Origin: Microbacteriaceae bacterium
GTDB lineage: Bacteria; Actinomycetota; Actinomycetes; Actinomycetales; Microbacteriaceae
DNA: 64,000 bases
Reading direction: 5' to 3'
Assembly (NCBI GenBank): GCA_019638805.1
Contig: JAHBTA010000003.1
Span: forward strand, 186,001 to 250,000
Below the pieces are notes generated by a model. That model was given only the letters and a program-made list of their open reading frames with translations, was not told where the DNA came from and did not search any database. Shown here one piece after another: positions 24,173 to 41,020 of this stretch (positions are counted from its first letter, which is position 1; each line of letters opens with the position of its first letter). The translations under genes were made by a program, and so were the position numbers.

Positions 24173-24924
24173 CCGGCGCGCCTCTCATCATCCCGCTGTG
24201 GGCTGACCTCCTCGCGGTCGGCATCGGGAGCCTGCAGGGGGCGCTCTTCGCGGCGCAGTTCCGTGACCGGCGGCTCGACCTGCTGGGGGTCGCGCTCATC
24301 GGCATCGCGACCGGCTTCGGCGGCGGCATCGTGCGCGACGTGCTGCTCGGGCAGGTGCCCGCCGCGCTGGACAGCAACGGGTATCTGCCGGTCGCCACCG
24401 CATCCGCCCTCATCGGCATGCTGTTGGAGCGACTGTTCCACCGGCTGCGGCACCTCATCACGGTGCTCGACGCCCTCACGATCGGGCTGTTCGGGGCGAT
24501 CGGCACGACCAAGGCGCTCGCGTTCGGACTGCCCGAGATCCCGGCGATCTTCCTCGGCGTGATCACGGCCGTGGGCGGCTCGATCCTGCGCGATCTGCTG
24601 CTCAACGTGCCCATCGCGCTCATGAGCGTCGGGTCGCTCTACGCGGTCGCCGCCCTGGTGGGGGCGACGAGCCTCGTCGTGATCGTGGCGCTCGGCGGCG
24701 ACATCCTGCTCGCGGCCACCGCATGCGTCGTGCTGACCTTCGTCGTGCGGGTGCTGGCCGTGTTGTTCAAGTGGACGCTGCCCGAGCAGGTCTCCCTGCG
24801 CCGGCGACGGCCGCGCCCGATCGAGCCGGGCACGGGGAACATCCCGATCACCGGCGAGGACCGCCAGGTCACCCGGCGTCCGACGGATGGGCCTTCCACG
24901 CGACCGCCTCGATCTCGACCATGA
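24169..24924 (+). CDS. UPF0126 / TRIC-like membrane protein
   Basis: 251-aa membrane protein with about seven helices in two repeats. Each repeat bears the family glycine motif: GFGGGIVRDVLLGQVP near residue 50 and VGGSILRDLLLNVP near residue 137. The family includes prokaryotic TRIC-like cation channels and proposed glycine transporters (YicG-like). Coupled to the upstream gene by a GTGA overlap. Its basic, Pro-rich C-terminal tail (after residue 210) overlaps the 3' end of the convergent ridA-like gene by 56 bases. Confidence 0.85.
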   Translation: MTGAPLIIPLWADLLAVGIGSLQGALFAAQFRDRRLDLLGVALIGIATGFGGGIVRDVLLGQVPAALDSNGYLPVATASALIGMLLERLFHRLRHLITVLDALTIGLFGAIGTTKALAFGLPEIPAIFLGVITAVGGSILRDLLLNVPIALMSVGSLYAVAALVGATSLVVIVALGGDILLAATACVVLTFVVRVLAVLFKWTLPEQVSLRRRRPRPIEPGTGNIPITGEDRQVTRRPTDGPSTRPPRSRP

Positions 24925-25276
24925 ACTCCGCGCGTGACAGCGGGCCGATCTGGACGGTCGCACGCGCCGGACGATGATCCCCGAACGCCGCGCGATAGGC
25001 GGTGTTCATTCCCTCGCTGAGCGTGATGTCGGTGAGATAGACGGTGGTCTTGACCACGTCCGAGAGCGACGCTCCCGCTTGCATCAGCACCCGTTCGATG
25101 TTGCCGATCACGCGCGCCGTCTGCTCCTGGATTCCGCCCGGAACGGTCTCCCCGGTCTCGAGATCGAACGGGACGCATCCCGAGACGTACACGAAGGGCG
25201 GCGCCCAGTAGCCCTGCGAGTAGGGCGCAGCGGGCGCCCGTGCGCCCGGGACGGAGAGCGGACCCGGGCGGATCAC
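24869..25276 (-). CDS. RidA-family enamine/imine deaminase
   Basis: 135-aa RidA/YjgF protein. Family pattern: PYSQGYWAPPFVYVSGCVPFD, Q-rich ARVIGNIERVLMQAGASLSDVVKTTVYLTD, RATVQIGPLSRAEFMVEIEAVAW; the usual active-site Arg is in PARATV and the final Glu in VEIEAVA. These proteins hydrolyse reactive enamines/imines made by PLP or amine-oxidising enzymes. It is the last gene of the PotABCD-like transport operon (GTGA overlap), so it probably acts on an intermediate from the imported substrate. GTG start at 25276 chosen from the overlap. Confidence 0.87.
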   Translation of the reverse strand: MIRPGPLSVPGARAPAAPYSQGYWAPPFVYVSGCVPFDLETGETVPGGIQEQTARVIGNIERVLMQAGASLSDVVKTTVYLTDITLSEGMNTAYRAAFGDHRPARATVQIGPLSRAEFMVEIEAVAWKAHPSDAG

Positions 25277-26352
25277 GGGGTCGCCTCTCCGAGGTCGATG
25301 ACCGCGTCGGCGGCCCACCAGATCGATACCGCGCTCCCGGGCTCGCGCTCGACATCGCCCGCGCCCGCACGCACGACCAGCTCGCCCACCGCTGTCTCGA
25401 CGCTGTATTGAAGGGTGTGCCCCAGGTAGTTCAGCTCGGTGACCCTCCCGTGCAGGGCGTCCTTGCGGCCCGCCGGTCCGACCTCCATCCGCTCCGGCCG
25501 GACGGCGATCCGCCAGCGCTTCCCCGTCGAGGCGCTCGAGGGGACGTCCACCGGACTGCCGTCGACGACGCCGCTCACCCGCCCGCCGACCTTCCGGACC
25601 TCGACCTCGAACGCGTTGAGCTCGCCGACGAAGTCGGCGACGAACGGATCGGCGGGGGTGCCGTAGATCTCGCGCGGCGTTCCGACCTGGAGCAGACGGC
25701 CGTCGTTCATGATCCCGATGCGATCCGACATCAAGAGCGCTTCCTCCTGGTCGTGGGTGACGTAGACGAACGTCGTGCCGAGCCGCTCCTGGATCGACTT
25801 CAGCTCGAGCTGCATGCGCTTGCGCAGTTTGACGTCGAGAGCGCTCAGCGGCTCGTCGAGCAGAAGCGCACGTGGACGGTTCACCAGCGCGCGGGCGAGG
25901 GCGACGCGCTGCTGCTGTCCGCCCGAGAGCTGATCGGCCCGGCGGTCGGCGAAGGCGCCGACCCCGACCGTCTCGAGCATCTCGTCGACGCGGTCGTCGA
26001 TCTCGGCGCGCGGCACCCGCCTCACCTTGAGCCCGTAGCCGACATTGCGGCGCACCGTCATATGCGGGAAGAGCTCGTACTTCTGGAAGACCAGGTTCAC
26101 CTGGCGCCGGTGGGCCGGGACCTCGGTCACATCGTGGCCGTCGAGCCGGATGCTCCCCGCGTCGGGGAACTCGAACCCGGCCATCATTCGCAGCGTCGTG
26201 GTCTTGCCGCAGCCCGACGGGCCGAGCAGCGAGAAGAACTCGCCCTGCGCGATCGTCAGGTCGAGGTGGCGCACCGCGGGCGCTTGCCCATAGGCCTTCT
26301 CGATTCCGACGAGCTCGATCGCGGGGCTCGTGCTGTCCGGGGTGGCACTCAC
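25273..26352 (-). CDS. Polyamine-type ABC importer ATPase (PotA-like)
   Basis: 359-aa ATPase. Walker A GPSGCGKTTTLR, Q-loop VFQKYELFPHMTV, signature [15 protein letters not shown], Walker B ALLLDEPLSALD, H-loop YVTHDQEEAL, then a C-terminal TOBE-like regulatory domain (IAVRPERMEV). This is the PotA/FbpC/CUT2 layout of importers for polyamines, opines, phosphonates or amino sugars. GTG start at 26352 overlaps the permease stop; RidA follows by the same 4-base overlap. Confidence 0.9.
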   Translation of the reverse strand: MSATPDSTSPAIELVGIEKAYGQAPAVRHLDLTIAQGEFFSLLGPSGCGKTTTLRMMAGFEFPDAGSIRLDGHDVTEVPAHRRQVNLVFQKYELFPHMTVRRNVGYGLKVRRVPRAEIDDRVDEMLETVGVGAFADRRADQLSGGQQQRVALARALVNRPRALLLDEPLSALDVKLRKRMQLELKSIQERLGTTFVYVTHDQEEALLMSDRIGIMNDGRLLQVGTPREIYGTPADPFVADFVGELNAFEVEVRKVGGRVSGVVDGSPVDVPSSASTGKRWRIAVRPERMEVGPAGRKDALHGRVTELNYLGHTLQYSVETAVGELVVRAGAGDVEREPGSAVSIWWAADAVIDLGEATP

Positions 26353-27143
26353 AGGGATTCCTTCGAGGTTCGACGGGCGGAGATGAAGGCGAGGGCGGAG
26401 GTGACCACGAGCAGAACCGTGCCGATGGCGTTGATCGACGGGTCCAGCTTGATGTTGATCCGCCCGTACATGATCAGCGGCAGCGTCTTGTCCTGTCCCG
26501 CGGTGAAGAACGCCACGATGAACTCGTCCGCCGAGAGGGCCATCGCCAGGAGCATCGATCCGAGCACCGCCGGAAGGATGATCGGCAGGGTGATGGTGCG
26601 GAAGGCGTGGAAAGCTCCCGCCCCGAGATCGCGTGCCGCCTCGATGAGCGAGAATCTGAACCGATCGAGGGTTGCCGAGATCACCAGCAGCACGAAGGGC
26701 AGCGACTGGATGATCTGCCCGGCGATGGTGGCGCCCAACGAGAATCCGACCCCGAGCTCCCGGTAGTACACCGCGAGGCCGATGGCGAACAGCAGGGCGG
26801 GGAACGACATCGGGATCATCGCGAAGAACATCACCGCGCCCTTGGTGCGCGAACTGAGCCCGACGATGCCGAGGCCGGCGAGGGTTCCGAGGATCGCGGT
26901 CACCAGACCGGTGGTCACGGCGGCGATGGCCGACCGTCCCATCGCGCGGACCACCTCGACGTCGGTGAAGATCTCCTCGTACCAGCGGAGCGAGAAGCCC
27001 TGGAACGGGAAGGCCATCCGCGGACTGGAGTGGAACGAGAAGAGCACGACGATCGCCAGCGGGGCGAACAGGAAGAGGAGCACCGCGCCGACGTAGAGGA
27101 TCGACGGCCACGGGACGCGGCGCCAGCGCGCGAGCCGCCTCAT
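26349..27143 (-). CDS. Polyamine-type ABC importer permease (PotC-like)
   Basis: 264-aa permease with about six helices: starts MRRLARWRRVPWPSILYVG, EAA loop IEAARDLGAGAFHAFRTITLPII, ending after the helix INAIGTVLLVVTSALAFIS. The sequence LSFHSSPRMAFPFQGFSLRWYEEIF-like first periplasmic loop is typical of PotC. ATGA overlap with the partner permease. Works with the PotB-like protein as a heterodimer. Confidence 0.9.
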   Translation of the reverse strand: MRRLARWRRVPWPSILYVGAVLLFLFAPLAIVVLFSFHSSPRMAFPFQGFSLRWYEEIFTDVEVVRAMGRSAIAAVTTGLVTAILGTLAGLGIVGLSSRTKGAVMFFAMIPMSFPALLFAIGLAVYYRELGVGFSLGATIAGQIIQSLPFVLLVISATLDRFRFSLIEAARDLGAGAFHAFRTITLPIILPAVLGSMLLAMALSADEFIVAFFTAGQDKTLPLIMYGRINIKLDPSINAIGTVLLVVTSALAFISARRTSKESL

Positions 27144-27985
27144 CGCACCCACCTCCGCACGACGGTGAAGAGCGCCCCGAGCAGGACGGCCAGCACCACG
27201 ACCAGAGTCACCGCGAGCGCCGCCCCGAGCGGCCAGTCGAATCCGGCGCCGAACTGGTAGGCGATCCGGTTGCCGATCATCTGGTCCTCGGTGCCGCCCA
27301 GCAATTGCGGCGTCAGCCACTCGGCGGCCGTCGCGATGAAGGTGAACACGAACGCCACCGTGACCCCCCGCAGCGCCAGCGGCAGCACGATCTTGCCCGC
27401 CGCCCCGAGCCGGGAGGAGCCGAGATCCTGCGCCGCCTCGATCTGACCCGGCCCGACGTTCTGCATCGCGGCGTAGATCGGCAGGATTCCGAGCGGGAGG
27501 TAGAAGTTGATCATGGCGATGATGATGGCGAACTCCCCGTTGCGCAGCAGATCGAGCGGCTCGGCGATGATCCCCGTCGACATGAGGGCCGAGTTCGCGA
27601 TGCCCTCGGTGCCGAAGATGCTGCGCCAGGCGTAGATGCGCACCAGGTACCCGCCGAACATGCTGACCAGCACGAAGAAGTACAGCAGGGAACGGTGGGC
27701 GCGAAGCGTGTACGTGATGACGTACGAGTAGAAGAACGCGACCACGGCGATCACCGCGGCGGTGATCGCCGAGATCCGGAGGGTGCGGATGAAGTAGGTG
27801 CGATACACCTCGCTCGTCCACGCCGTGACGTAGTTGTCGAGCGTGAACTCGGGGACGAAGTCGAAGTTCTCCGTCGTGTAGAAGCTGTAGGCGACCAGTA
27901 CCAGCAGTGGCGCGCCGAAGAGGGCCGAGTAGTACACCGATGCCGGAGCCAGCTGCAGGGCAGCCACGATTCGGTTCGGTTTCAC
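27140..27985 (-). CDS. Polyamine-type ABC importer permease (PotB-like)
   Basis: 281-aa permease. N-terminal helix after MKPNRIVAALQL, PotB-like first loop NFDFVPEFTLDNYV, EAA loop IEAAQDLGSSRLGAAGKIVLPLA, about six helices. GTG start at 27985, 35 bases after the binding-protein stop. Same operon as the binding protein, PotC, PotA and RidA. Confidence 0.9.
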   Translation of the reverse strand: MKPNRIVAALQLAPASVYYSALFGAPLLVLVAYSFYTTENFDFVPEFTLDNYVTAWTSEVYRTYFIRTLRISAITAAVIAVVAFFYSYVITYTLRAHRSLLYFFVLVSMFGGYLVRIYAWRSIFGTEGIANSALMSTGIIAEPLDLLRNGEFAIIIAMINFYLPLGILPIYAAMQNVGPGQIEAAQDLGSSRLGAAGKIVLPLALRGVTVAFVFTFIATAAEWLTPQLLGGTEDQMIGNRIAYQFGAGFDWPLGAALAVTLVVVLAVLLGALFTVVRRWVR

Positions 27986-28020
27986 TCGGCCCTCTTCTCA
28001 GTGCGCAAACGGGGGTGAGA

Positions 28021-29169
28021 TCAGCTACCGGAGGTGATCTGCTCCCAGGCGTCGAGCCAATCCTGGTAGCTAGTCATCCCATCCGGCACATCCTCCTGCG
28101 GGATCATCGGCCCGAAGACGTTGGTCGTCGGGTCCATGACGGAGGACTCGTAGTCGTACACGTCCGCGGGCCCACCCGCCGTCGCCTCGATCGCCTGGGT
28201 GTTGACGACACCCGAGATGAGGTTCTCGGCGATCTGCACCTGAGCGTCCACGCCGATCATCTGGTCGATGTAGAGCGCCGCGCACTCCGCGTTCTGCGCG
28301 GTGGTCGGGATGGCGATCGCATCCCACCAGCCCGTGCGACCCTCATCGAAGTAGCCCCAGTCGAGCGTCACTCCGCGTTCCGCAGCCGCGGCGACCTGCG
28401 CCTGCCAGCCGTTGATCACGAGGTCGACGTCGCCAGAGACCATGCGGTCCGTGGCGTCCTGGTAGTTCGTGGCGAAGGCGGCGGCGTTCTGCACCAGCGT
28501 CTTCGCTGTGGCGGCCACCTCCTCGAGCTCCTCCGGCGTGAGGTTCGGCGAGTCGAATCCGAGCGCGTTGCCGATGAAGTAGAACGAGCGACCGGGCGAG
28601 TTGAACAGCACGAAGCGGTCCTTCCACTCCGGCTTGGTCAGGTCCAGGATCGACAGGCGGTCGTCCACGATCTCGGCCTTGTCCGGGCGGTAGACGAACG
28701 GTCCGTCACCCCAGGCGATCGGCGCACCGTAGATCACGCCATCGGCATCGCGGATGTTGGAGGACTCGGCCATGCCGGGCACCATATCGGCCCAGTTGCC
28801 GAGGCGCTCGGTGGGAAGCGCCTGGAAGATCCCGCCCTCGACCATGCGCTGTGCGTCGTCCTTGGTCATGGTCGCCAGATCGAACTGCTGACCGGACTTG
28901 ATGGCGGCGATCAGCTGCGACATGTCCGCGGTGGACGTCGTCTGCAGCGTCATGTCGTGCTCGGCCCGCCAGTCGGCGAGCTCCTTGTCGCCCTGCTCGC
29001 CATCGAGCCCGATGAAGCTGAGCGTGACGCCGTCGCAGGCGGTGGGATCGATCGGGCCGGAGCCCGTCGGGGTCTCTCCGCCGCCGCCACCGCCGGTGCA
29101 GCCGGCGAGGACGGTGGTGAGGGTGAGTGCTGCGGCGATCGCGCCGCCGCGGATGACACGGTGAGACAT
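28021..29169 (-). CDS. PotD-like solute-binding lipoprotein
   Basis: 382-aa extracytoplasmic binding protein. Signal peptide with lipobox VLAGC and a Gly-rich linker. The mature part carries LSFIGLDGEQ, FDLATMTKDDAQRMVEGG, GVIYGAPIAWGDGPFVYRPD, WKDRFVLFNSPGRSF and INGWQAQVAAAAERG, typical of family 1 polyamine/iron-type binding proteins. Ligand not deducible; the PotD acidic ligand residues cannot be mapped with confidence. First gene of the import operon, with AAGGAG before the ATG and operator site A within its promoter. Confidence 0.88.
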   Translation of the reverse strand: MSHRVIRGGAIAAALTLTTVLAGCTGGGGGGETPTGSGPIDPTACDGVTLSFIGLDGEQGDKELADWRAEHDMTLQTTSTADMSQLIAAIKSGQQFDLATMTKDDAQRMVEGGIFQALPTERLGNWADMVPGMAESSNIRDADGVIYGAPIAWGDGPFVYRPDKAEIVDDRLSILDLTKPEWKDRFVLFNSPGRSFYFIGNALGFDSPNLTPEELEEVAATAKTLVQNAAAFATNYQDATDRMVSGDVDLVINGWQAQVAAAAERGVTLDWGYFDEGRTGWWDAIAIPTTAQNAECAALYIDQMIGVDAQVQIAENLISGVVNTQAIEATAGGPADVYDYESSVMDPTTNVFGPMIPQEDVPDGMTSYQDWLDAWEQITSGS

Positions 29170-29206: not shown

Positions 29207-29235
29207 AGCCTAGGACCTAAGTACTAAGCTGTCAA
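29207..29235 (-). promoter_or_regulatory. Import-operon promoter with operator site A in the spacer
   Basis: Minus strand: -35 TTGACA (29230-29235, perfect consensus), 17-base spacer, -10 TAGGCT (29207-29212). The spacer contains CTTAGTACTTAGGTCC (29228 down to 29213), the same motif as sites B, C and D. A repressor bound here would block RNA polymerase. Confidence 0.8.
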
Positions 29236-29253: not shown

Positions 29254-30231
29254 TCATCCGACGGCCTCGACCGCACCGGAACGCAGGGAGCGCGATGCCG
29301 CCTCGATCACCGCGAGGCAGCCGTCGACCGTGTGCGCGGCCGCACGCGGTGATGCTCCGCCCCGTGCCGCCGTCGCGAAGTCGGCCAGCTGGGCACGGAA
29401 GCCCTCCGCGAGCACGGCGCTCTCGTCCGCGGAGTAGATGCTTCGTCCGTCGAGCGCGAGCGACCGATAGCCGGAGAACAGCAGCGTTCCCGCTCGGCCG
29501 ACGACGAGCAGATCGTGCAGCGGCTCGCGACTGGAGAACGACTGGTTGAGCGCGATCCGGCCGCCGTTCGACAGGTCCCCGAGCAGGTTGATGCTGTCGA
29601 GGCCGTCGAATCCGGGGACTCCCGATCCCCCGCGGCACAGCACCCGGGTCACGCGCACCCCCAGCAGGTCCAGGACGAGATCGATCGAGTGCGAGCCCCA
29701 GTGGTGCAGGAGGAAGTCGTCGGTGTCCGACCACCAGGGCGCGGCGGCCGCGCGATGCTCGACCCGGCGCTCGACGATCTGCTCGACCTCGCCGATCGCG
29801 CCCGAGTCCAGCAGGGTCCTCGCCGCGCTCACCGTCGGGAGGAATCGCACGACCTGTCCGCTGACGAGCACCCGGCCGACGCCCTCCGCGCGTGCCACGA
29901 GAGAGCGCAGCTCCTGGCGCGAAGGGGCCACCGGCTTCTCGATCATGGCGTGCAGCCCGGCGTCCAGGGCCTCCGCGCCGATCCGGGTGTGGGTGGCGGT
30001 CGGGGTCGCGATGATCGCCGCGTCGGCCGGCGCCGAGGCGAGGGCGGCGGCGAGGTCGGGCGCGACGACGACCGGCCGGTCCCTCGCCAGCGCGGCCGCC
30101 GCGCCCAGATCGGGGTCGGCGACCGCCGCCAGCTCGACATCGGGCACCGCGTCGATCGCCCGGACATGGTCGGCCGCGATCCTCCCGGCGCCCACCAGGA
30201 CGACCCGGAGCGGCCCGGAGCGGTCAGGCAC
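29254..30231 (-). CDS. Gfo/Idh/MocA-family oxidoreductase
   Basis: 325-aa NAD(P)-dependent oxidoreductase. Rossmann motif VVLVGAGRIAADHVRAI, ATPTATH, the EKP motif in AMIEKPVAPSRQEL, and a C-terminal beta-sheet domain (DDFLLHHWGSHSIDLVLDLLG with the catalytic-type His). The family oxidises sugars, inositols, amino sugars and their acids. Third gene of the operon starting at the class V PLP gene (8-base overlap with the amidohydrolase). Substrate not predictable; a cyclitol or sugar-like intermediate is inferred. Confidence 0.87.
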   Translation of the reverse strand: MPDRSGPLRVVLVGAGRIAADHVRAIDAVPDVELAAVADPDLGAAAALARDRPVVVAPDLAAALASAPADAAIIATPTATHTRIGAEALDAGLHAMIEKPVAPSRQELRSLVARAEGVGRVLVSGQVVRFLPTVSAARTLLDSGAIGEVEQIVERRVEHRAAAAPWWSDTDDFLLHHWGSHSIDLVLDLLGVRVTRVLCRGGSGVPGFDGLDSINLLGDLSNGGRIALNQSFSSREPLHDLLVVGRAGTLLFSGYRSLALDGRSIYSADESAVLAEGFRAQLADFATAARGGASPRAAAHTVDGCLAVIEAASRSLRSGAVEAVG

Positions 30232-31669
30232 GCAGCATCCCGTCCCGGCGCGGGAGGTACCCGGTCCGGGCGACCATCGCCCGTGCAGCCGTCTCGACGG
30301 CGGCGAGCGCCTCCGGTTCGTCGACGCCCGTGAGCCGACCGTCGCGCAGGACGACCCGCCCGTCGATCACCACCGAGCGCACCGTCCGGGAGCCCGCCGC
30401 GTAGACCAGATTCCGCACCGGGTCGAAGGCGGGAGCCGACTCGGGGCGATCCGCGGAGTGGATCACGAGATCGGCGCGCTTCCCCGGCTCCAGCGAGCCG
30501 ATACGATCGCCGAGCCCGGCGGCGCGCGCGCCGCCGATGGTCGCGATCCGGAGGGCGTCGACGGCCCCGAGAGCCGCGCGATCCCCCTCGATGGTGCGGC
30601 TCAGCAGGATCGCGAGCTGAGCCTGCCTGAACAGATCGAAGACGTTCGACCAGTTGCTCGAGTCCGAGCCGAGGCCGACCGATCCGCCGGCCCGCCAGAA
30701 CCGCGCGTGCCTGCTCGACAGCACGACCGAGTGACCCCAGATCATCGAGGCGGCGGGCGCCCAGGACAGCCCCGCCCCGGTGGTCAGCAGAGCATCCGTC
30801 TCACGATCCGAGAGCACGTTGGCATGGCTGAGCAGGAGCGACTCGTCCAGAACGCCGAGCGCCTCGAGCCCGAGCACCGGGTCGGTGCCGAACATCCGGG
30901 AGACCGCCTCGTGATCCGACTCCTCGTAGGCGTGGTGCATGTTGAGGATCGCCCCGTGCCTCACCGCGAGCTCATGACAGTGCCCGATGAGCTCCGGGCT
31001 CGCGGTTCCCAGCCCCCGCAGAGCGATATGACCGGTCACGAGCGCATCGGGGTCGGCATTGCGCCAGAGCTGACCGCCGGCCACCTGCAGAGCCTGGTCG
31101 AGGTCCTGCGGCTCGCGGGAGGCGCGCGCGGTGCTCACGGTCGATCCGGCGCGCATGTCCCAGATGAATCCATCCGGCTGATCCATCAGGAACGCGTCGG
31201 CCAGGACCGCACGGATACCCACCCCCGTGGCCGCCCGCGCGGCGGCATCGGGTGCGAAGACCGAACCGGCCTCGACGAAGCAGGTGGTGCCGTTGCGCAC
31301 CATCTCGATCGCCGCCAGCTGGACCGCGAGGAACTCCTCCTCCTCGGTGACGGTGTCCAGATAGGCCCGGGTGAAGCCGGGGAAGACCTCGTCCTCGGGG
31401 ACGTCGTCCGCGAAGATCCCGCGGTACAGGTGGTAGGCGGGATGCACGTGCGTCTCGACCAGCCCGGGGTGCACGGGCGCGCCCGCCGCGTCGATCTCAT
31501 GGTCGGCGGCGAAGCGGCGCGAGAGCTCGGCGTCGTCCCCGATCGCGACGATGTCGCGACCGCGGATCGCCACCGCGCCGTCCGGGAGGACGCTGCCGCG
31601 GTCGTCCATCGTGATCAGGTAGCCATGGCGGATCAGCAGATCCGCCTCGAGACGCTCCTCGGCCGTCAC
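30224..31669 (-). CDS. TRZ/ATZ-type amidohydrolase (metal-dependent deaminase/hydrolase)
   Basis: 481-aa amidohydrolase-superfamily enzyme of the SsnA/MtaD/TrzN group. Metal ligands: H74 and H76 in GLVETHVHPAYHLYRG, His in ILNMHHAYEESDHE, His in LSHANVLSDRE and Asp in GLGSDSSNWSN. N- and C-terminal beta-sandwich segments are present (PDGAVAIRGRDIVAIGDD, LEPGKRADLVIHSADR). Members deaminate aromatic amines or hydrolyse C-N or C-Cl bonds of purines, triazines and related rings. GTGA overlap with the upstream class V gene. Substrate unknown. Confidence 0.87.
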   Translation of the reverse strand: MTAEERLEADLLIRHGYLITMDDRGSVLPDGAVAIRGRDIVAIGDDAELSRRFAADHEIDAAGAPVHPGLVETHVHPAYHLYRGIFADDVPEDEVFPGFTRAYLDTVTEEEEFLAVQLAAIEMVRNGTTCFVEAGSVFAPDAAARAATGVGIRAVLADAFLMDQPDGFIWDMRAGSTVSTARASREPQDLDQALQVAGGQLWRNADPDALVTGHIALRGLGTASPELIGHCHELAVRHGAILNMHHAYEESDHEAVSRMFGTDPVLGLEALGVLDESLLLSHANVLSDRETDALLTTGAGLSWAPAASMIWGHSVVLSSRHARFWRAGGSVGLGSDSSNWSNVFDLFRQAQLAILLSRTIEGDRAALGAVDALRIATIGGARAAGLGDRIGSLEPGKRADLVIHSADRPESAPAFDPVRNLVYAAGSRTVRSVVIDGRVVLRDGRLTGVDEPEALAAVETAARAMVARTGYLPRRDGMLRA

Positions 31670-32805
31670 GCGGCGTGTCCGTCCGGCACGGCCAGTCGTT
31701 CGACGAAGCGCTCGAGCTCCTCCGGCGTGTTGTAGATGTACGGGGATACCCGCAGCACGCCCTCCCGCCCCCAGACGTGGATGCCCTCGGAGGCGAGACG
31801 CGCCGCGACGGCATCGGCGTCGGGCGTCGGAATGGTCACGATCCCGACTCTACGGTCCGGTTCGACGGGGCCGTACGCGATGCCACGGGCGGCCAGCCCG
31901 GCGACGAGCACCTCGAGCAGTTCGGCCGTGCGCTCCGCCCGTGCCGCGAGCCCGAGGGTCTCGAGGAACCTCAGGCTCTCGAGCAGCACCGCGAGTCCGA
32001 GGTAGTTCGGCATCCCGTCCTCCAGGCGGCGAGCGTCCTCGTGCAGGCGATGCCGTCGCAGGCGCTCCGGGTCGAAGGCATCCGCCACGCCACGCCACCC
32101 GCGATAGGCCGGCACGCGGTCGGCCATGGTCCGCGGGTTGCGATGGATGACCGCCAGACCGTGAGGGCCGAGGAGCCACTTGTAGGTGCCGAAGACGAGG
32201 ACGTCGATGTCGTCCAGCGGCAGGTCCACGAGGCCGGCGGACTGGATGGCATCGACGATCAGCACCGGGCGACGCGGCCCGAGAAGGCGGCGGAGCTCCC
32301 CGATGTCGACCCGCCTCCCGGTGATGAAGCTCACCGAGCTCACGACGACGACGACCGTGCGCTCGTCGACGCGCTCCGCGAGCTCGCGCTCGCCGGCGGT
32401 CGCGATCCCCATCGCCGGGACCAGTCGCAGCTCGGCCCCGGCTTCGCGCAGCCGCTGGCCGGTCACGATCGCCGTGGGGAATTCGCTGTCGAGCATCACC
32501 ACGTTGCTCCCCTCCGGGATGTCGACGAGCCCGACCGCCGCATCGAGGGCGCGGCTAGTGGAAGAGACGAACGCGACATCGGCGGGATCGCCGCCGAGCA
32601 GGCGCGCGACCGCCTCGCGCGCCTGCGCCTCGATCGTCGCCAGCGCCGGTCGACCGAGCGCGCCGCGCTGCTTGGCCTCGGCGTATCGGGCGAAGGCGAC
32701 GTCGGCGTCGCGGGGCCACAGGCCCTCGGCGGAGGTGTTCAGGTAGGCACCGGGACCGTCCCAGCTGAAGTGCCCGCGGATGTCCTTCCATGCGAGTTCC
32801 GACAT
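31666..32805 (-). CDS. Class V PLP-dependent enzyme (aminotransferase/lyase/epimerase type)
   Basis: 379-aa fold-type I PLP enzyme. Seen: AYLNTSAEGLWP, FVSSTSRALDAAVG, LDSEFPTAIVT, VDAIQSAGLVDL with D185 and Q188, and the Schiff-base lysine K209 in VFGTYKWLLGPHG, plus a C-terminal domain ending IHVWGREGVLRVSPYIYN. It resembles isopenicillin-N-epimerase/selenocysteine-lyase-like proteins rather than NifS, as the catalytic Cys loop is absent. First gene of a three-gene operon divergent from kdgD, apparently leaderless. Could be a transaminase, C-N/C-S lyase or racemase. Confidence 0.85.
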   Translation of the reverse strand: MSELAWKDIRGHFSWDGPGAYLNTSAEGLWPRDADVAFARYAEAKQRGALGRPALATIEAQAREAVARLLGGDPADVAFVSSTSRALDAAVGLVDIPEGSNVVMLDSEFPTAIVTGQRLREAGAELRLVPAMGIATAGERELAERVDERTVVVVVSSVSFITGRRVDIGELRRLLGPRRPVLIVDAIQSAGLVDLPLDDIDVLVFGTYKWLLGPHGLAVIHRNPRTMADRVPAYRGWRGVADAFDPERLRRHRLHEDARRLEDGMPNYLGLAVLLESLRFLETLGLAARAERTAELLEVLVAGLAARGIAYGPVEPDRRVGIVTIPTPDADAVAARLASEGIHVWGREGVLRVSPYIYNTPEELERFVERLAVPDGHAA

Positions 32806-32811
32806 GCTGCT

Positions 32812-32843
32812 ACGGTATCAGAACTAAAGACTTAGGTCATTAG
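32812..32843. promoter_or_regulatory. Divergent promoter region with operator site B
   Basis: Plus strand CTAAAGACTTAGGTCATTAG (32824-32843) is site B of the island regulon. On the minus strand a TACCGT box (32812-32817) ends six bases before the class V gene's ATG, so site B covers its spacer and -35 region. The kdgD transcript starts from the same 58-base gap; its -10 box is not clear. Confidence 0.7.
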
Positions 32844-32863: not shown

Positions 32864-33784
32864 ATGCCCCTCGACCCCACCGCCCTCGCGGCGCAGCTCG
32901 GCACCGGGCTGCTGTCGTTCCCCGTCACCCACTTCGATGACGACCTGGCCTTCGATCGAGCCGGGTACGAGGAGCATCTCGCCTGGATGGCCGGCCATCC
33001 CGTCGCGGGCCTGTTCGCCGCGGGGGGCACGGGCGAGTACTTCTCCCTCGGCCACGCCGAGGTCGCCCAGGTGGTGCGCACCGCGATCGCCGCCACCTCG
33101 GGGCGGGTGCCGATCCTCGCTCCGGCCGGCGGCTCCACCGTCGATGCCGTCGCCCAGGCGCGCGACGCCGAAGCGGCCGGAGCCGACGGCATCCTGCTCT
33201 TCCCCCCGTACCTCACCGAATCGACCGATGAGGGACTGGTCGCCCGCGCCCGCGCCGTCTGCGCGGCCACCGGCCTCGGGGTCGTCTACTACAACCGAGG
33301 CAACGGCACCCTGGGGGCACCGGCCGTCGTCCGCCTGGCCGAGGAGTGCCCGACCCTCATCGGGTTCAAGGACGGAGTCGGCAGCGTCGAGCTGATCACC
33401 CGGATCGTGACGCGGCTCGGGTCGCGGCTGGTCTACATCGGCGGGCTCCCCACCGCGGAGACTTTCGCGCTGCCCTACCTGCAGCTCGGGGTCACCACCT
33501 ACTCCTCCGCGATGTTCAACTTCGTGCCGGAGTTCGCGCTGCGCTTCTACGACAGCGTCCGCGCACTCGACACCGCCGCGGTCGCTCGACTGCTCGACGC
33601 CTTCGTGCTGCCCTATCTGGACATCCGCGACCGCCACCCGGCGACCGCCGTCTCGATCGTCAAGGGGGGTTTGCGCGCCATCGGCCGCCCGGCTGGGAGC
33701 GTGCGGCCGCCACTGATCGACCTGCCCGAGGGGGATGTCGCCGACCTCGGCCGCCTGATCGCGGGAATCGAGGAGCTCCGATGA
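32864..33784 (+). CDS. kdgD: 5-dehydro-4-deoxyglucarate dehydratase (KdgD)
   Basis: 306-aa DHDPS-superfamily enzyme, predicted to dehydrate and decarboxylate 5-keto-4-deoxy-glucarate to 2,5-dioxopentanoate (alpha-ketoglutarate semialdehyde). KdgD hallmarks: LLSFPVTHFDDDLAFD, GLFAAGGTGEYFSL, FPPYLTEST, VYYNRGNGTL with Tyr near 143, Schiff-base K169 in LIGFKDGVGSVEL, GGLPTAETFALPY, and TYSSAMFNFVPEFAL. These separate it from Pyr4H2C deaminase and DapA. AAAGGA lies 9 bases before the ATG. Coupled by ATGA to the aldehyde dehydrogenase, the next step. Confidence 0.88.
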   Translation: MPLDPTALAAQLGTGLLSFPVTHFDDDLAFDRAGYEEHLAWMAGHPVAGLFAAGGTGEYFSLGHAEVAQVVRTAIAATSGRVPILAPAGGSTVDAVAQARDAEAAGADGILLFPPYLTESTDEGLVARARAVCAATGLGVVYYNRGNGTLGAPAVVRLAEECPTLIGFKDGVGSVELITRIVTRLGSRLVYIGGLPTAETFALPYLQLGVTTYSSAMFNFVPEFALRFYDSVRALDTAAVARLLDAFVLPYLDIRDRHPATAVSIVKGGLRAIGRPAGSVRPPLIDLPEGDVADLGRLIAGIEELR

Positions 33785-35295
33785 CGACGACCGCGGGTCT
33801 CATCGCCGACGGCGTGCTCATCGACGGCGAGGCGGCGATCGCGACGACCGTCGATCCGTCCACCGGGGCGACCGTCGGGGCGTTCCGCGGTGCGACCCGT
33901 TCCCAGCTCGATCGGATCGCGGGGCTGGCCGCCGACGCGGAGGACCGATTCCGACACACCGGCGCTGCCGTCCGGGCCGCCCTCCTCGAGGACATCGCGC
34001 TGCGGATGGAGGACGCCGGCGACGAGATCGTCGATCTGGCGGTGGCGGAGTCCGGCCTCTCACGAGCGCGCATGGTCTCGGAGCTCGGGCGGACCACCGG
34101 ACAGCTGCGCATGTTCGCCGCCGCCCTGGAGGAGGGCGGCATCGGGCACCGCCGCGCCGACTCCACGGGTGGTCCGACCCCTGTGCCTCTGCTGCTGCGG
34201 ACGCTCGCGGTCGGCCCGGTCGCGGTGTTCGCCGCCAGCAACTTCCCCCTCGCGTTCTCGACGGCCGGCGGCGACGTGGCGTCGGCGCTGGCCGCCGGCT
34301 GCCCGGTCATCGTGAAGGCGCACAGCGCGCACGTCGCGACGAGCGTCCGCGTGGCACGGGCGATCGCCGACGCGGTCCGCGCCTCCGGGCTCCCCGGCGG
34401 CGTGTTCGGGCATCTGATCGGCGATCGGGAGATCGGAACCGGGCTGGTGGCCCATCCGGCGATCCGGGCCGTCGGGTTCACCGGCTCGCGCGGCGGCGGG
34501 CAGGCACTCGCCCGGGTCGCGGCGGAGCGCCCGCATCCCATCCCCGTCTTCGCCGAGATGAGCTCGGTCAATCCGGTCTTCGTCCTGCCGGGCTCGGCGA
34601 CCGAGGCGGTCGCCGATGGCTTCGTCGCGTCCCTGACGCTCGGCGGCGGGCAGTTCTGCACCAACCCCGGTCTGGTGTTCGTTCCCGCGGGGGCGGCGGG
34701 CGACGCCTTCGTGGCGCGATCGGCGAGGCTGGTCGAGGATGCCGCCGCGCAGACCATGCTGACCGGTGCGATCGCGAGGGCGTACTCGTCCTCGGTCGAG
34801 GATGCGTGCCGTCGGGGCGCGCAGCTGGTCGCGAGCGGGATCGCCGCCGAGCCGCGCAACGCGCCGGCCGCTCACCTCCTCGAGATCGACCTGGCGGCTT
34901 TCCAGGAGGACGCCCGCTGGATGGACGAGATGTTCGGGGCGGCGGGCCTCGTGGTCCGCTACCCTGGCGCCGCCCAGCTGGTCGCCGCCGCGGAAGCGCT
35001 CGACGGGCAGCTGACCGCGACGATCTGGCACGAGGGCGCCGATGACGAGGCGACGCTGCGCGCACTGCTGCCGGTTCTCGAGCGGAAGGCCGGGCGTCTG
35101 ATCTCCAACGGCTGGCCGACCGGTGTCGCCGTGAGCCCGGCGATGGTGCACGGCGGCCCCTCGCCGGCGACGACGGATGCCCGATTCACGGCAGTGGGAA
35201 CGCTGGCGGCCGACCGCTTCCTGCGTCCGGTCGCCTACCAGGGGTTCCCGGAGTCGCTGCTCGAGGGAGTGCTCGGTGCCGACACCAACTCCTGA
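33781..35295 (+). CDS. 2,5-dioxovalerate (alpha-ketoglutarate semialdehyde) dehydrogenase
   Basis: 504-aa NAD(P)-dependent aldehyde dehydrogenase. Seen: VFAASNFPLAFS with N154, K179 in VIVKAHSAH, FTGSRGGG, general base E259 in PVFAEMSSVNP and nucleophile C293 in LGGGQFCTNPG. The long, Ala-rich form and these motifs match the KGSA dehydrogenases encoded with kdgD, giving 2-oxoglutarate. Start ATG at 33781 overlaps the kdgD stop (ATGA). Operator site C begins two bases after its stop codon. Confidence 0.88.
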   Translation: MTTTAGLIADGVLIDGEAAIATTVDPSTGATVGAFRGATRSQLDRIAGLAADAEDRFRHTGAAVRAALLEDIALRMEDAGDEIVDLAVAESGLSRARMVSELGRTTGQLRMFAAALEEGGIGHRRADSTGGPTPVPLLLRTLAVGPVAVFAASNFPLAFSTAGGDVASALAAGCPVIVKAHSAHVATSVRVARAIADAVRASGLPGGVFGHLIGDREIGTGLVAHPAIRAVGFTGSRGGGQALARVAAERPHPIPVFAEMSSVNPVFVLPGSATEAVADGFVASLTLGGGQFCTNPGLVFVPAGAAGDAFVARSARLVEDAAAQTMLTGAIARAYSSSVEDACRRGAQLVASGIAAEPRNAPAAHLLEIDLAAFQEDARWMDEMFGAAGLVVRYPGAAQLVAAAEALDGQLTATIWHEGADDEATLRALLPVLERKAGRLISNGWPTGVAVSPAMVHGGPSPATTDARFTAVGTLAADRFLRPVAYQGFPESLLEGVLGADTNS

Positions 35296-35296
35296 C

Positions 35297-35324
35297 CTAG
35301 TACCTAGGACTTACCTGCTAGGCT
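35297..35324 (+). promoter_or_regulatory. Promoter of the amidohydrolase pair with operator site C
   Basis: CTAGTACCTAGGACTTA (35297-35313) precedes an extended -10, TGC-TAGGCT (35319-35324 for the hexamer). Site C fills the -35 and spacer region. The downstream genes start at 35360 with GGAGGG upstream. Confidence 0.7.
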
Positions 35325-35359
35325 GGGCGAAACCGAACGCCGCAACCGGAGGGATCTAG

Positions 35360-36178
35360 ATGCCGCTCGCCGAGGCCGTCGTGCGACATGACATGCACGC
35401 CCACATCTGGCGCGCTCCCCGGCACCCCGATCGCGTCCCGCCGGGAGTCGACGGGAGCGTCGAGGCGCTCCTGGCCGATATGACCGCCGCGAAGGTGTCC
35501 CGCGCCGCGATCATCACCCCGAGGTCGATGGGCTGGGACGACGGGGTCACCCTCGACGCGGCGCGCGCGCATCCCGACCGACTGGTCGCCGTGGTCCGCT
35601 GCGACCTCGAGTCCGGCGACGCCGCCGAGCGCCTGGGCGAGGCCATCGCCGCGGGCGCCCGCGGCGTGCGGATCGCGGCGGACGACGGCCCCCTCGACCG
35701 GCTGCTCGACGACGACACGGAGCGAGTCCGCGCCGTCCTGCGCCGGACCGGGATCCCCCTCGCCCTGCACGCATACCCCGCCGACCTCGACGCCGTCGAC
35801 GGGATCCTCCGCGCGCTCCCCGGGCACCCGGTGCTCCTCGACCACCTCGGCCGGCCGTCCGTGGCGGACGGCGTCGACGAGCCCATCTTCCAGCGCGTGC
35901 TGCGGATGGCAGCGCACCCCGGTCTGCACCTCAAGACGCCCGATGTGCCGTTCTTCACCCCGGAGGGCGGCGCCTTCGAGGATCTCGTTCCCTTCCTCGC
36001 CGCCGCGCTCGAGGCCTTCGGCCCGGCGCGGATCGCCTGGGGCTCCGACTGGCCGCTCTGCGTCACGGCGCACGACTACTCGGCGGTGCTGGCGCCGATC
36101 GCCACCGCTCTGGAGCCGTACCGCCCGGACGAGCGCGAGTTGGTGTGGAGCGGCAACTTCGATCGGCTCTACGGATGA
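35360..36178 (+). CDS. Amidohydrolase_2 / COG3618 lactonase-like hydrolase
   Basis: 272-aa TIM-barrel protein of the group containing 2-pyrone-4,6-dicarboxylate lactonase, L-fuconolactonase and galactarolactone isomerase. Seen: HDMHAHIW (H13, H15), LALHAYP, LLDHLGRP and WGSDWPLC (Asp), the conserved active-site positions. Beside kdgD and the semialdehyde dehydrogenase, a role in opening or isomerising an aldaric-acid lactone is plausible, as galactarolactone isomerase does in uronate oxidation. This is an inference; other lactones or imides are possible. ATGA overlap with the next gene. Confidence 0.83.
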   Translation: MPLAEAVVRHDMHAHIWRAPRHPDRVPPGVDGSVEALLADMTAAKVSRAAIITPRSMGWDDGVTLDAARAHPDRLVAVVRCDLESGDAAERLGEAIAAGARGVRIAADDGPLDRLLDDDTERVRAVLRRTGIPLALHAYPADLDAVDGILRALPGHPVLLDHLGRPSVADGVDEPIFQRVLRMAAHPGLHLKTPDVPFFTPEGGAFEDLVPFLAAALEAFGPARIAWGSDWPLCVTAHDYSAVLAPIATALEPYRPDERELVWSGNFDRLYG

Positions 36179-37395
36179 GCGGGCGCGCGGGCTGGCTCCG
36201 GGTCGGCGCGGCAGTCGTCGCCGGGGAGCTCCGGCATGACCAGGCGGTGCGCATCCAGGACGGACGGATCGCCGAGATCGCGGCGGGAGGCGCCGCGCCG
36301 GCCGATGCCCGCCACGCCCCGAACGCCACCCTGATCCCCGGATTCGTCGACGCCCACTGCCACCTCAGCTTCGGCTACGCCGAGGACCACGCGACCGTGC
36401 GCCGGATCGCCGAGGATGCCGACCTCGCCGGGCTTCGCGATCAGATCCGGCGCCACGCGGGCGAGTGCCTCGCCGGCGGGGTGACCGCCATCCGCGACTG
36501 CGGGGACCGCGACTTCGCCACCCTCGCCGTACGCGACGAGATCCGTCGCGGCGAGCTCGCCGGCCCGGTCATGCTCGCGGCCGGGCCGCCCGTGACCACC
36601 CCCGGCGGACACCTCAACTGGTGCGGCGGCGCCGTGGGCCCCGAGGACGACATCCAAGCCGCCGTCGACCGGCTCGGCGACGCCGGAACGGACCTGGTCA
36701 AGGTGCTCGCCAGCGGAGGCGGGATGACGGCGGAGTCCGACCCGCACCACCCGCAGTTCTCGCGCGAGCGACTCGAGCTTCTCGTCCGGCGGGCACGGGA
36801 GCGCGGCCTGCCGGTCGCCGCGCACGCGCACAGCACCGACGCGATCGCGCTCAGCGTCGCCGCCGGCGTCAGCACCGTCGAGCACTGCAGCTGGAAGGGG
36901 ATCGACGGGTCGGCCGATGTCCGGCTCGACGTCGTCGACTCGATCGCCCGCCAGGGCATCGCGGTCGTGCTCACGATGGCCGGCATCCACCGCGTCATGC
37001 TGCCCGGCCGCGGGACGGATGCCGACCAGGTCCGCAGCGCTCTCGAGAGCTCGGCCACCGGACGGCTCGCCGATGACTTCGCGTGGGCGCGAACCCTCCG
37101 CGAACGCGGCTGCGAACTCGTCATCGCCAGCGACGCGGGCGTGCGCTTCACCCCGTTCATCGGCTTCATCGACTCGGTGCGCTGCGGGATCGAGGCGCTT
37201 CGGATCACGGCGGTCGAGGCGATCGGCATGGCGACCGCCGCCCCGGCGCGCGCGCTGGGCCTGGCCGACGTGGTCGGCGAGCTCGCCGAGGGCAGGCAGG
37301 CGGATGCCGTTCTCCTGGACGGGCTCCTGACCCCCGAGTCGTCCGAGCTGCCGGACATCGTGGCCGTCTGGGCGAAGGGGCTTCAGGTCGTCTAG
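36175..37395 (+). CDS. Imidazolonepropionase/prolidase-like amidohydrolase
   Basis: 406-aa amidohydrolase of the COG1228 type. Metal motif GFVDAHCHLSFG (H61, H63), a candidate carboxylated Lys in DLVKVLASGGGMT, His in VAAHAHSTDA, His in TVEHCSWKG and Asp in LVIASDAGVRF. Flanking beta-sandwich parts are present (GELAEGRQADAVLLDG). Relatives hydrolyse cyclic amides, imides and X-Pro dipeptides. Start ATG at 36175 overlaps the lactonase-like stop. Its TAG stop and the gntR TAG share a palindromic CTAG. Confidence 0.84.
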   Translation: MSGRAGWLRVGAAVVAGELRHDQAVRIQDGRIAEIAAGGAAPADARHAPNATLIPGFVDAHCHLSFGYAEDHATVRRIAEDADLAGLRDQIRRHAGECLAGGVTAIRDCGDRDFATLAVRDEIRRGELAGPVMLAAGPPVTTPGGHLNWCGGAVGPEDDIQAAVDRLGDAGTDLVKVLASGGGMTAESDPHHPQFSRERLELLVRRARERGLPVAAHAHSTDAIALSVAAGVSTVEHCSWKGIDGSADVRLDVVDSIARQGIAVVLTMAGIHRVMLPGRGTDADQVRSALESSATGRLADDFAWARTLRERGCELVIASDAGVRFTPFIGFIDSVRCGIEALRITAVEAIGMATAAPARALGLADVVGELAEGRQADAVLLDGLLTPESSELPDIVAVWAKGLQVV

Positions 37396-38105
37396 CTGCG
37401 ACGCGAGGCGTCCACGCTCGCGCGAACGCGGTCGAGGTGCGCCATCATGAGGCGCTGCGCGGCATCCCCGTCGTGGGAGGCGAGGGCGTCGAGGATCGCG
37501 CGGTGCTCGGTGTCGCTGGTGGAGTGCGACCCGCCCGTCGACTCGGTCGCCGCGAGGCCCTGCTCGCGCTCACGGGTCAGGGCGTCGAAGAGGGCGTCGA
37601 CGATGGCGCTCACGAAGCTGTTGCCGGCCGCCCGCGCCACGCCCGAGTGGAACTCGACGTCGAGCTCCGAGCGCGAGACATCGTGATCGCCGTCGGCCCC
37701 CTCGATGCGGACCAGCAGGTCCTCGAGCTCGCCGAGCTTGCGATCGGAGATCCGGCTCGCGGCGAGCGCGGCGGAGGCGCCCTCGAGGATGCGGCGGAAC
37801 TCCAGCAGGTCGCCCAGCCCGCCGTCGCGACTGTCCAGCAGGAGACGGAAGTACTGCCGGACGGCCACCGGCGGCAGGTTCGCGACCTCGCTGCGGCGGC
37901 CCTGTTGCGTGCGGATCACGCCGAGCTGACTCAGCATCCGGAGCGCATCGCGCACGACCCGCATGCTCGCCCCGTAGGTGCGGGCGATCTCCTGCTCGGA
38001 CGGCAGCGGGTCGCCGTCGACGAGACCTTCGGTCCGGATGTGATCGACCAGTTGATCCGCGAGTTGCGTCCCGAGGTACGGCGCTCCGAAGTCCTTGGTG
38101 AGCAT
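37392..38105 (-). CDS. GntR/FCD (FadR-subfamily) transcriptional regulator of the island
   Basis: 237-aa regulator. N-terminal winged helix: LADQLVDHIRTEGLVDGDPLPSEQEIARTYGASMRVVRDALRMLSQLGVIRTQQG. C-terminal FCD ligand domain: LLEFRRILEGASAALAA, metal-type D and H in LDVEFHSGVARAAGN, and TEHRAILDALASHD. Such repressors leave DNA on binding a pathway metabolite. Site D overlaps its -35 region, indicating autoregulation, and the three similar sites A-C in the island point to it as their regulator. TAGACT ends six bases before the ATG (leaderless). Confidence 0.9.
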   Translation of the reverse strand: MLTKDFGAPYLGTQLADQLVDHIRTEGLVDGDPLPSEQEIARTYGASMRVVRDALRMLSQLGVIRTQQGRRSEVANLPPVAVRQYFRLLLDSRDGGLGDLLEFRRILEGASAALAASRISDRKLGELEDLLVRIEGADGDHDVSRSELDVEFHSGVARAAGNSFVSAIVDALFDALTREREQGLAATESTGGSHSTSDTEHRAILDALASHDGDAAQRLMMAHLDRVRASVDASRRS

Positions 38106-38111
38106 GCGTCC

Positions 38112-38139
38112 AGTCTAGGCCACGCCCCCCAACTAGTAC

Positions 38140-38146
<7 letters not shown>
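38112..38146 (-). promoter_or_regulatory. gntR promoter with operator site D
   Basis: -10 TAGACT (38112-38117, minus strand) ends six bases before the gntR ATG. Plus-strand CTAGTACCTAGGTC (38133-38146) covers the expected -35 position and includes the stop codon of the esterase gene (38140-38142). Confidence 0.72.

Positions 38147-41020
<2,874 letters not shown>

Follow-up and report, generated by a model that had tools for sequence, protein, structure and literature searches.

Two described routes of sugar-acid catabolism come closest to the locus considered here. The oxidative uronate/aldarate pathway runs through uronate dehydrogenase, a lactonase or isomerase, glucarate or galactarate dehydratase (GudD or GarD), 5-dehydro-4-deoxyglucarate dehydratase/decarboxylase (KdgD) and alpha-ketoglutarate-semialdehyde (KGSA) dehydrogenase. 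In the Ong route of Pseudoalteromonas, OngB, an amidohydrolase akin to D-aminoacylases (PMC12017989), deacetylates N-acetylglucosaminate, OngC, a pyridoxal 5'-phosphate (PLP) enzyme of fold type III, deaminates glucosaminate to 2-keto-3-deoxygluconate (KDG) and ammonia, and OngD, a RidA protein whose role is unknown, is required for growth (PMC9537276). Here we describe a gene cluster in 64,000 nucleotides of Microbacteriaceae DNA (assembly GCA_019638805.1, contig JAHBTA010000003.1, positions 186,001 to 250,000; the whole stretch is called the window) in which KdgD and a KGSA-type aldehyde dehydrogenase (ALDH) are accompanied by a class V PLP enzyme, a RidA protein, a Gfo/Idh oxidoreductase and three amidohydrolases (AH1, AH2 and AH3), in a genome where neither GudD nor GarD finds a match. 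Of the explanations that we weighed we favour, at slightly less than even confidence, a route in which oxidation and ring opening of an N-acyl amino-hexuronate or -hexarate are followed by deacylation and then by deamination, through the PLP enzyme and RidA, to the KdgD substrate.

That KdgD and a semialdehyde dehydrogenase lie next to a lactonase-like amidohydrolase without a glucarate or galactarate dehydratase had been noticed in a first-pass annotation of the window, and this observation stands. The three open reading frames (ORFs) concerned, those of KdgD, ALDH and AH2, have exactly the coordinates that it gave (Table 1), and the genome search that it called for returned no match to gudD (TIGR03247) or garD (PF04295) in this genome (3.14 Mb in 10 contigs, rich in G+C, 98.2% complete), i.e. 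neither form of the aldarate dehydratase of the oxidative pathway was found there. Four MR_MLE_C matches are present: one is a rhamnonate dehydratase (658.8 bits), another, at G000:C1:706248, weakly resembles talarate/galactarate dehydratase (82.6 bits against a cut-off of 500), and the remaining two, read from their sequences and neighbours, are enolase and probably menC. The lone match to the IlvD/EDD family was taken as the biosynthetic IlvD, and an aldarate dehydratase of that type was rejected. The more general statement that aldarate clusters normally add gudD or garD calls for caution: GudD, 61-68% identical to the E. coli protein, is present within the stretch fetched in 14 of 22 other KdgD neighbourhoods (one copy is cut by the stretch end), but not within the stretch in the other 8, one of which lies on a 7.8-kb contig; three of these 8 (L099, L109, L110) have another MR_MLE-type gene nearby. 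For this comparison the GarD query was a partial E. coli protein. A missing GudD neighbour is, on its own, common, and the genome-wide absence, which concerns the genome of the window, is the stronger fact. Two KdgD-ALDH clusters without GudD in the stretch (L100 and L104, in G573 and G329) have an NMT1-type ABC transporter; L104 contains a weak creatinase/M24-type Pfam match as well as a YjgF/RidA-type one and L100 is similar by sequence, so that a further amine-linked KdgD route is possible there.

The window KdgD scores 397.2 bits against the NCBIfam subfamily model NF002958 (cut-off 278) and 281 bits, over nearly the whole length and with 48.6% identity, against the A. tumefaciens KdgD 4UR7. 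Relatives at E≤1e-70 occur in 23 of 345 genomes of the class, its own included, with no other hit carrying the family label, and the class relatives are 55-66% identical to it. Full-length plasmid matches, among the 30 of 722 records listed, are of two kinds, at 44-62% identity (annotated kdgD where named) or at about 32% or less, and the window protein belongs with the former. The accessible text of PMC13398020 names residues G53/T54, Y141, K167, P194, A214 and a serine in AbKdgD, and that of PMC5114784 names the same kinds of residues, with roles in catalysis, carboxylate binding or the substrate pocket. Mapped by a constant shift of 2 (our own mapping), and judged from the alignment to 4UR7 and from motif position, their counterparts in the window are G55/T56, Y143, K169, P196, S214/S215 and A216, i.e. 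the alignment retains the Schiff-base lysine, the catalytic tyrosine, the carboxylate-holding Gly-Thr and the water-release serine. The protein also keeps 82 of the 86 columns that are invariant among 15 reference KdgDs. In a leave-one-out comparison, 13 of the 14 gudD-linked rows departed in 0-3 columns, L116 in 6 and 4UR7 in 23, and the departures of the 8 rows without GudD nearby were 0, 0, 0, 2, 3, 3, 3 and 4. His128 is kept in 22 of 24 aligned rows (4UR7 included), being replaced by R in the window and by Y in G475, a genome of another genus; the two KdgDs so changed (window and G475 L110) are the two that lie near AH2, AH3 and a FadR-type regulator. A tree places the window KdgD in a 98/94 group of 8 rows together with three gudD-linked proteins, 4UR7, G475 and L100/L104 (bootstrap not settled). 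As a member of the KdgD clade with its catalytic and carboxylate-binding residues kept, the enzyme should still need a 2-keto-3-deoxy-hexarate. Since KdgDs are described as highly specific (accessible text of PMC13398020), the kept residues and the position in the clade make it very probable that the pathway of the cluster makes this compound. The adjacent ALDH gives 373.5 bits against the NADP+ aldehyde dehydrogenase 3v4c. It reaches no NCBIfam cut-off, with 84.6 of 770 bits for NF042993 and 87.7 of 750 for NF052305 among the semialdehyde dehydrogenase equivalogs; a related ALDH, 47-56% identical, is present at 15 of the 22 other kdgD loci.

A shared operator ties the KdgD-ALDH pair (32864-35295, plus strand) together with the AH2-AH3 pair (35360-37395, plus), with the PLP enzyme, AH1 and Gfo/Idh genes (29254-32805, minus) and with the transporter genes and RidA (24869-29169, minus) into one putative regulon. 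The operator half-site ACYTAGGWC has four copies in the 64 kb, every one in an intergenic region of the cluster, where 0.29 copies are expected and none of 100 shuffles reaches four; the copies precede the transporter series, the AH2-AH3 pair and the regulator gene and occupy the gap between the PLP and KdgD genes. Of a longer form, TAGTACYTAGGWC, the genome contains three perfect copies, which all lie in the KdgD cluster; sites with one mismatch are absent, and those with two number seven, all at other places. Together with the lack of a gudD match, this excludes a gudD gene elsewhere under the same operator as far as the 98.2%-complete assembly goes. The protein that binds these sites is presumably the FadR-type regulator encoded at 37392-38105 on the minus strand. 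A RidA gene, as in the Ong gene set, is present as the last gene of the operator-led transporter series, which, to judge from the overlaps between its genes, probably forms an operon (the RidA GTG at 25276 falls within the last bases of the ABC ATPase gene; the ORF opens at 25318). A promoter and terminator scan gave nothing exceeding shuffles.

A counterpart of this arrangement exists in G475, where the module AH2 (44-46% identity)-AH3 (50%)-FadR (53%) is found twice; the AH2 match of the C5 copy is broken into two pieces that lie in different frames. AH3 relatives at E≤1e-60 occur in 2 of 394 genomes of the class, namely its own and G475 (two copies). Operator variants lie ahead of both G475 regulators, each of which stands beside AH2-AH3, and the window and G475 share the 15-base operator GCCTAGGACCTAAGT without a change, at 29208 in the former and in the gap between the genes for the creatininase and AH2 in the latter. 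Further genes of the C36 copy encode KdgD (56%, with 410.8 bits against TIGR03249), Gfo/Idh (30%), a creatininase-family protein, short-chain dehydrogenase/reductase-type and nitrilase-type proteins, and a fold-II PLP enzyme resembling CuyA, D-cysteine desulfhydrase and 1-aminocyclopropane-1-carboxylate deaminase (below cut-offs). Taking the contents of this copy and of the window together, a PLP enzyme of one kind or another accompanies AH2, AH3, Gfo/Idh and KdgD in two genera. The window AH2 query matched at one of the 22 other KdgD loci, that of G475.

The PLP enzyme of the window has the Schiff-base lysine (Lys209) and not a single cysteine among its 379 residues, and therefore lacks the catalytic Cys of cysteine desulfurases. 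The matches of its structural model (mean pLDDT 77.7, pTM 0.83) are class V enzymes: PvdN and SufS lead by E-value, and the cystine lyase C-DES has the highest TM-scores of the 50 rows shown, 0.82-0.83; identity to the structural matches shown is about 20-24%. The modelled structure and the missing cysteine fit beta-elimination, short of proof. Relatives are rare: they were found at E≤1e-40 in 6 of 299 genomes of the family, at 1e-50 in 3 of 394 of the class and at 1e-36 in 2 of 396 of the phylum, the own genome being counted each time. Around the eight actinobacterial relatives whose neighbourhoods were retrieved, RidA was found at 5 loci, an M20 deacylase at 6, Gfo/Idh at 7, a COG3618 protein at 5 (one of them a fusion), rhamnose mutarotase at 4 and creatininase at 2, whereas the same queries gave, in this order, 0, 0, 1, 0, 0 and 1 at the 22 KdgD loci, which are a neighbourhood control and not a random genome sample. 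The eight loci are not independent, three being of one genus and two of another, and one of them, G270, supplied five of the queries and so matches itself. In the fusion, encoded in G419, a COG3618 part (PF04909 at 5-267) is followed by a PLP enzyme (PF00266 at 346-654). Plasmid relatives, of which 8 out of 49 matching records were opened, lie in mixed amino-acid contexts, and two of the eight have an annotated RidA close to the PLP gene. Because sugar-type enzymes stand beside an N-deacylase, the PLP enzyme and RidA, the actinobacterial neighbourhoods suggest that the compound handled is an N-acylated amino sugar acid.

Outside the window, the same genome has another cluster with a comparable logic (L047, G000:C1:668000-684000). 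It encodes a RidA 74% identical to that of the window over 92 residues, AH3-like and AH2-like proteins and Gfo/Idh, and also a PLP enzyme of the threonine-synthase/dehydratase type (fold II), a phosphotriesterase-type lactonase and proteins of the dihydrodipicolinate synthase (DHDPS) type and resembling tartronate-semialdehyde reductase. No MR_MLE or garD match falls within C1:668000-684000.

The roles that we propose for AH1, AH2, AH3 and Gfo/Idh are drawn from family and context. For AH2 the nearest NCBIfam models, both below their cut-offs, are sulfomuconolactone hydrolase (81.5 of 500 bits) and fuconolactonase (67.9 of 400 bits). The suggestion of the first-pass annotation that this COG3618 protein acts as galactarolactone isomerase is not favoured: in a profile search 4mup, which we take to be that isomerase, comes seventh of 10 with 61 bits, behind 2ffi with 98 and 4d8l with 79. 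Its other suggestion, that the KdgD substrate arises by deamination of an amino-substituted sugar acid, gains partial support, as the genes for the PLP enzyme, Gfo/Idh, RidA and KdgD are all in units headed by the operator and the comparative evidence favours it. The nearest structure of AH1 is 4f0r, and AH3 matches 3be7. Of 516 records matching AH1 three were opened, two of which carry no annotation. One AH1 relative on a plasmid of Microvirga sp. VF16 (L132; 35% identity) lies beside ABC permeases like those of the window (38% and 32%), and by our own reading the ORFs there include an M20-type hydrolase, a beta-keto-acid-cleavage-type protein and a class III aminotransferase.

The cluster may thus serve the FadR-controlled catabolism of an N-substituted amino-sugar diacid or uronic acid, passing through the level of a 2-amino-2-deoxy-hexarate. 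The ABC transporter would import the substrate, Gfo/Idh would oxidise a sugar carbon to give a lactone, AH2 would open the lactone, and AH3 and/or AH1 would cleave off the N-acyl group or another C-N group. Water could then be eliminated from the 2-amino-3-hydroxy acid by the class V PLP enzyme, with RidA helping to hydrolyse the enamine/imine; from its chemistry, the same elimination on a 2-amino-2-deoxy-hexarate would yield the KdgD substrate, 2-keto-3-deoxy-hexarate (5-dehydro-4-deoxyglucarate), plus ammonia, with no need of an aldarate dehydratase. KdgD would convert this to ketoglutarate semialdehyde and CO2, and ALDH would produce 2-oxoglutarate. Every step upstream of KdgD, as well as the order of the steps and the substrate, is our inference. 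Uronic acids, nucleoside-type uronic acids and aldarate derivatives are all conceivable as the substrate. More specifically, and more tentatively, to the point that we lean against it, 2-acetamido-2-deoxy-hexuronic acids from polysaccharides of bacteria (GlcNAcA, ManNAcA, GalNAcA) or 5-amino-5-deoxy-hexuronosyl compounds, e.g. peptidyl-nucleoside antibiotics, may be turned by oxidation into 2-amino-2-deoxy-hexarates, which the SufS-like PLP enzyme and RidA would deaminate directly to the KdgD substrate; chemistry and general knowledge suggest these candidates. 2-Amino-2-deoxy-uronic acids occur in bacterial capsules and wall polymers, and we know of no described route for their catabolism. Among the papers listed from the open-licence literature, judged by titles and the starts of abstracts, no description of it was found, which is a weak negative, and among the matches listed for peptidyl nucleosides, for glucosaminate with RidA and for KdgD with RidA and amidohydrolase there was no such pathway except the Ong route. 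If the proposal is true, the use of amino-sugar diacids could be recognised by a KdgD that is accompanied by a PLP enzyme, RidA and Gfo/Idh and not by gudD/garD, and a group of unassigned SufS-like enzymes would gain a testable activity.

Several findings weigh against the deaminative pathway. The KdgD/PLP promoter has the most degenerate of the operator sites, absent from the 10 genome places of the longer form, and in G475 there is no site within three mismatches ahead of KdgD, beside which lies an MR_MLE enzyme that could be a dehydratase or a cycloisomerase. Identity between the PLP enzyme and the eight relatives that provide the context is no more than 29-37%; the queries for KdgD, AH1, AH3, KGSA-type ALDH and the window AH2 matched in none of their eight stretches, and the COG3618 proteins found near them are of another subfamily than AH2. 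Around a further relative (G787), the eight plasmid ones and 24 distant ones (22-28% identity, from a genome contig scan) no queried feature reached the cut-off, many of the 24 stretches being short; the 24 match none of the other cluster queries. AH1 is in a deaminase-rich family and is not a known deacetylase. Finally, KdgD stays 1.1 bits short of the cut-off of the equivalog TIGR03249 (372.8 against 373.95), sits on a long branch of the tree and has four changed invariant columns (H128R, D187S, G260A and Y261T), none of them among the residues named in the accessible text of PMC13398020 and PMC5114784.

The long branch and the changed columns would also fit a KdgD that had drifted to another substrate, e.g. 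pyrroline-4-hydroxy-2-carboxylate, in a pathway handling a cyclic imino acid, and the change of His128 only here and in G475 is a further point for it. We consider this very unlikely, as the named catalytic and carboxylate-binding residues are kept, the protein sides with the 44-62% plasmid matches rather than with the distant kind, and a PF05544 (4-hydroxyproline) epimerase has no match in the genome. An ordinary hydroxyproline route was rejected as unlikely on the same two grounds, the missing epimerase and the residues of true KdgDs. Less improbable, yet still unlikely, is ordinary aldarate or uronate oxidation, where an unlinked MR_MLE dehydratase or cycloisomerase feeds KdgD, AH2 is an aldarolactonase and the PLP/RidA arm serves some other purpose. 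GudD accompanies most KdgD loci and another MR_MLE-type gene accompanies three of the rest, G475 included, and the protein at C1:706248 could be such an enzyme; but its score is far below the cut-off, it lies among other sugar genes (Gfo/Idh and DHDPS by similarity, a mutarotase-like ORF by our own reading), there is no operator match, and the operator that KdgD shares with the PLP enzyme, RidA and three amidohydrolases is left unexplained. Another possibility, which we rate as quite unlikely, is a conjugate as substrate, in which an amine or amino acid is joined to a sugar diacid through an amide and which the amidohydrolases cut into an amino part for PLP enzyme and RidA and a sugar part for KdgD and ALDH. 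Three different amidohydrolases, the resemblance of AH3 to dipeptidases and carboxypeptidases, the distantly PotD-like binding protein and the Microvirga locus, with its similar permeases and apparent M20 hydrolase, would all suit such a conjugate. A sugar diacid released in this way would, however, still need a dehydratase ahead of KdgD, and the COG3618::PLP fusion and the Gfo/Idh neighbours favour one substrate chain.

Table 1. Genes and operator sites of the KdgD cluster (window positions)
Feature	Coordinates	Strand	Evidence or remark
RidA-family enamine/imine deaminase	24869..25276	-	Pfam PF01042, 7.7e-31
ABC transporter ATPase	25273..26352	-	PF00005 + TOBE_2, scanned as 25273-26322; GTG start 26352
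ABC permease	26349..27143	-	PF00528
ABC permease	27140..27985	-	PF00528
Solute-binding protein, distantly PotD-like	28021..29169	-	62.1 bits against cut-off 582
Operator, 15 bases, ahead of the putative transporter-RidA operon	29208..29222	+	GCCTAGGACCTAAGT; half-site 29214-29222(-)
Gfo/Idh/MocA oxidoreductase (proposed C1 oxidation)	29254..30231	-	PF01408, 1.2e-21
AH1, TRZ/ATZ-type amidohydrolase (proposed C-N hydrolase)	30224..31669	-	NF006549, 216 bits, below cut-off 540
Class V, fold type I PLP enzyme, Lys209, no Cys (proposed amino-hexarate deaminase)	31666..32805	-	PF00266
Operator half-site, divergent PLP/KdgD promoter region	32830..32838	+	ACTTAGGTC; weakest of four
KdgD, 5-dehydro-4-deoxyglucarate dehydratase/decarboxylase	32864..33784	+	Profile, structure and alignment matches
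ALDH, alpha-ketoglutarate-semialdehyde type	33781..35295	+	Function suggested by kinship
Operator half-site ahead of AH2-AH3	35302..35310	+	ACCTAGGAC
AH2, COG3618/Amidohydro_2 protein (proposed lactonase)	35360..36178	+	PF04909, 1.3e-33
AH3, Amidohydro_1, Xaa-Pro-dipeptidase/carboxypeptidase-like (proposed N-deacylase)	36175..37395	+	NF051886, 159 bits, below cut-off 500
FadR/GntR-FCD regulator	37392..38105	-	PF07729 + PF00392
Operator half-site ahead of regulator gene	38138..38146	+	ACCTAGGTC

The regulator gene is adjoined by that of an acetyl-xylan-esterase family protein (PF05448, window 38140-39072), which has no operator half-site ahead of it. Upstream of KdgD in G475 (L119:747-1041), a tRNA-like gene is apparently split by a group I intron-like insert; the insert matches RF00028 over the full length with 32.7 bits (E 1.7e-6), below the gathering score of 50, and ARAGORN makes no call.

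Compared with known enzymes, the PLP protein shares the fold and the Schiff-base lysine of the class V enzymes SufS, C-DES cystine lyase, PvdN and EgtE, resembling C-DES best by TM-score in the rows shown, but it has no cysteine at all and hence, by prediction, no persulfide chemistry. AH2 has in common with the COG3618 lactonases (LigI, fuconolactonase, galactarolactone isomerase) the Amidohydro_2 domain, with D-H-L-G and D-W-P stretches conserved in the three proteins aligned, whereas it reaches no equivalog and shows no preference for galactarolactone isomerase. With the oxidative uronate/aldarate pathway the cluster shares KdgD, a semialdehyde-type dehydrogenase and a possible lactonase; it differs in that no gudD or garD match exists in the genome and that a PLP enzyme, RidA and three amidohydrolases lie in its operator-led units. 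The likeness to the Ong pathway is one of logic, here predicted from the genes: an amidohydrolase removes the amide, a PLP enzyme turns a 2-amino sugar acid into a 2-keto-3-deoxy acid by deamination, and a RidA protein and a dedicated repressor belong to the set. The parts, however, are different. OngC is of fold type III and the window PLP enzyme of fold type I, class V (PF00266), OngB is a D-aminoacylase-type enzyme, the regulator and transporter families are not the same, and the Ong route continues by KDG kinase where the window would continue by KdgD, which needs a C6 diacid. If the dehydratase-free entry proposed above is true, it would parallel the oxidised-chitin route at the level of diacids, with unrelated enzymes, and would have a second version in G475 that employs a fold-II PLP enzyme.

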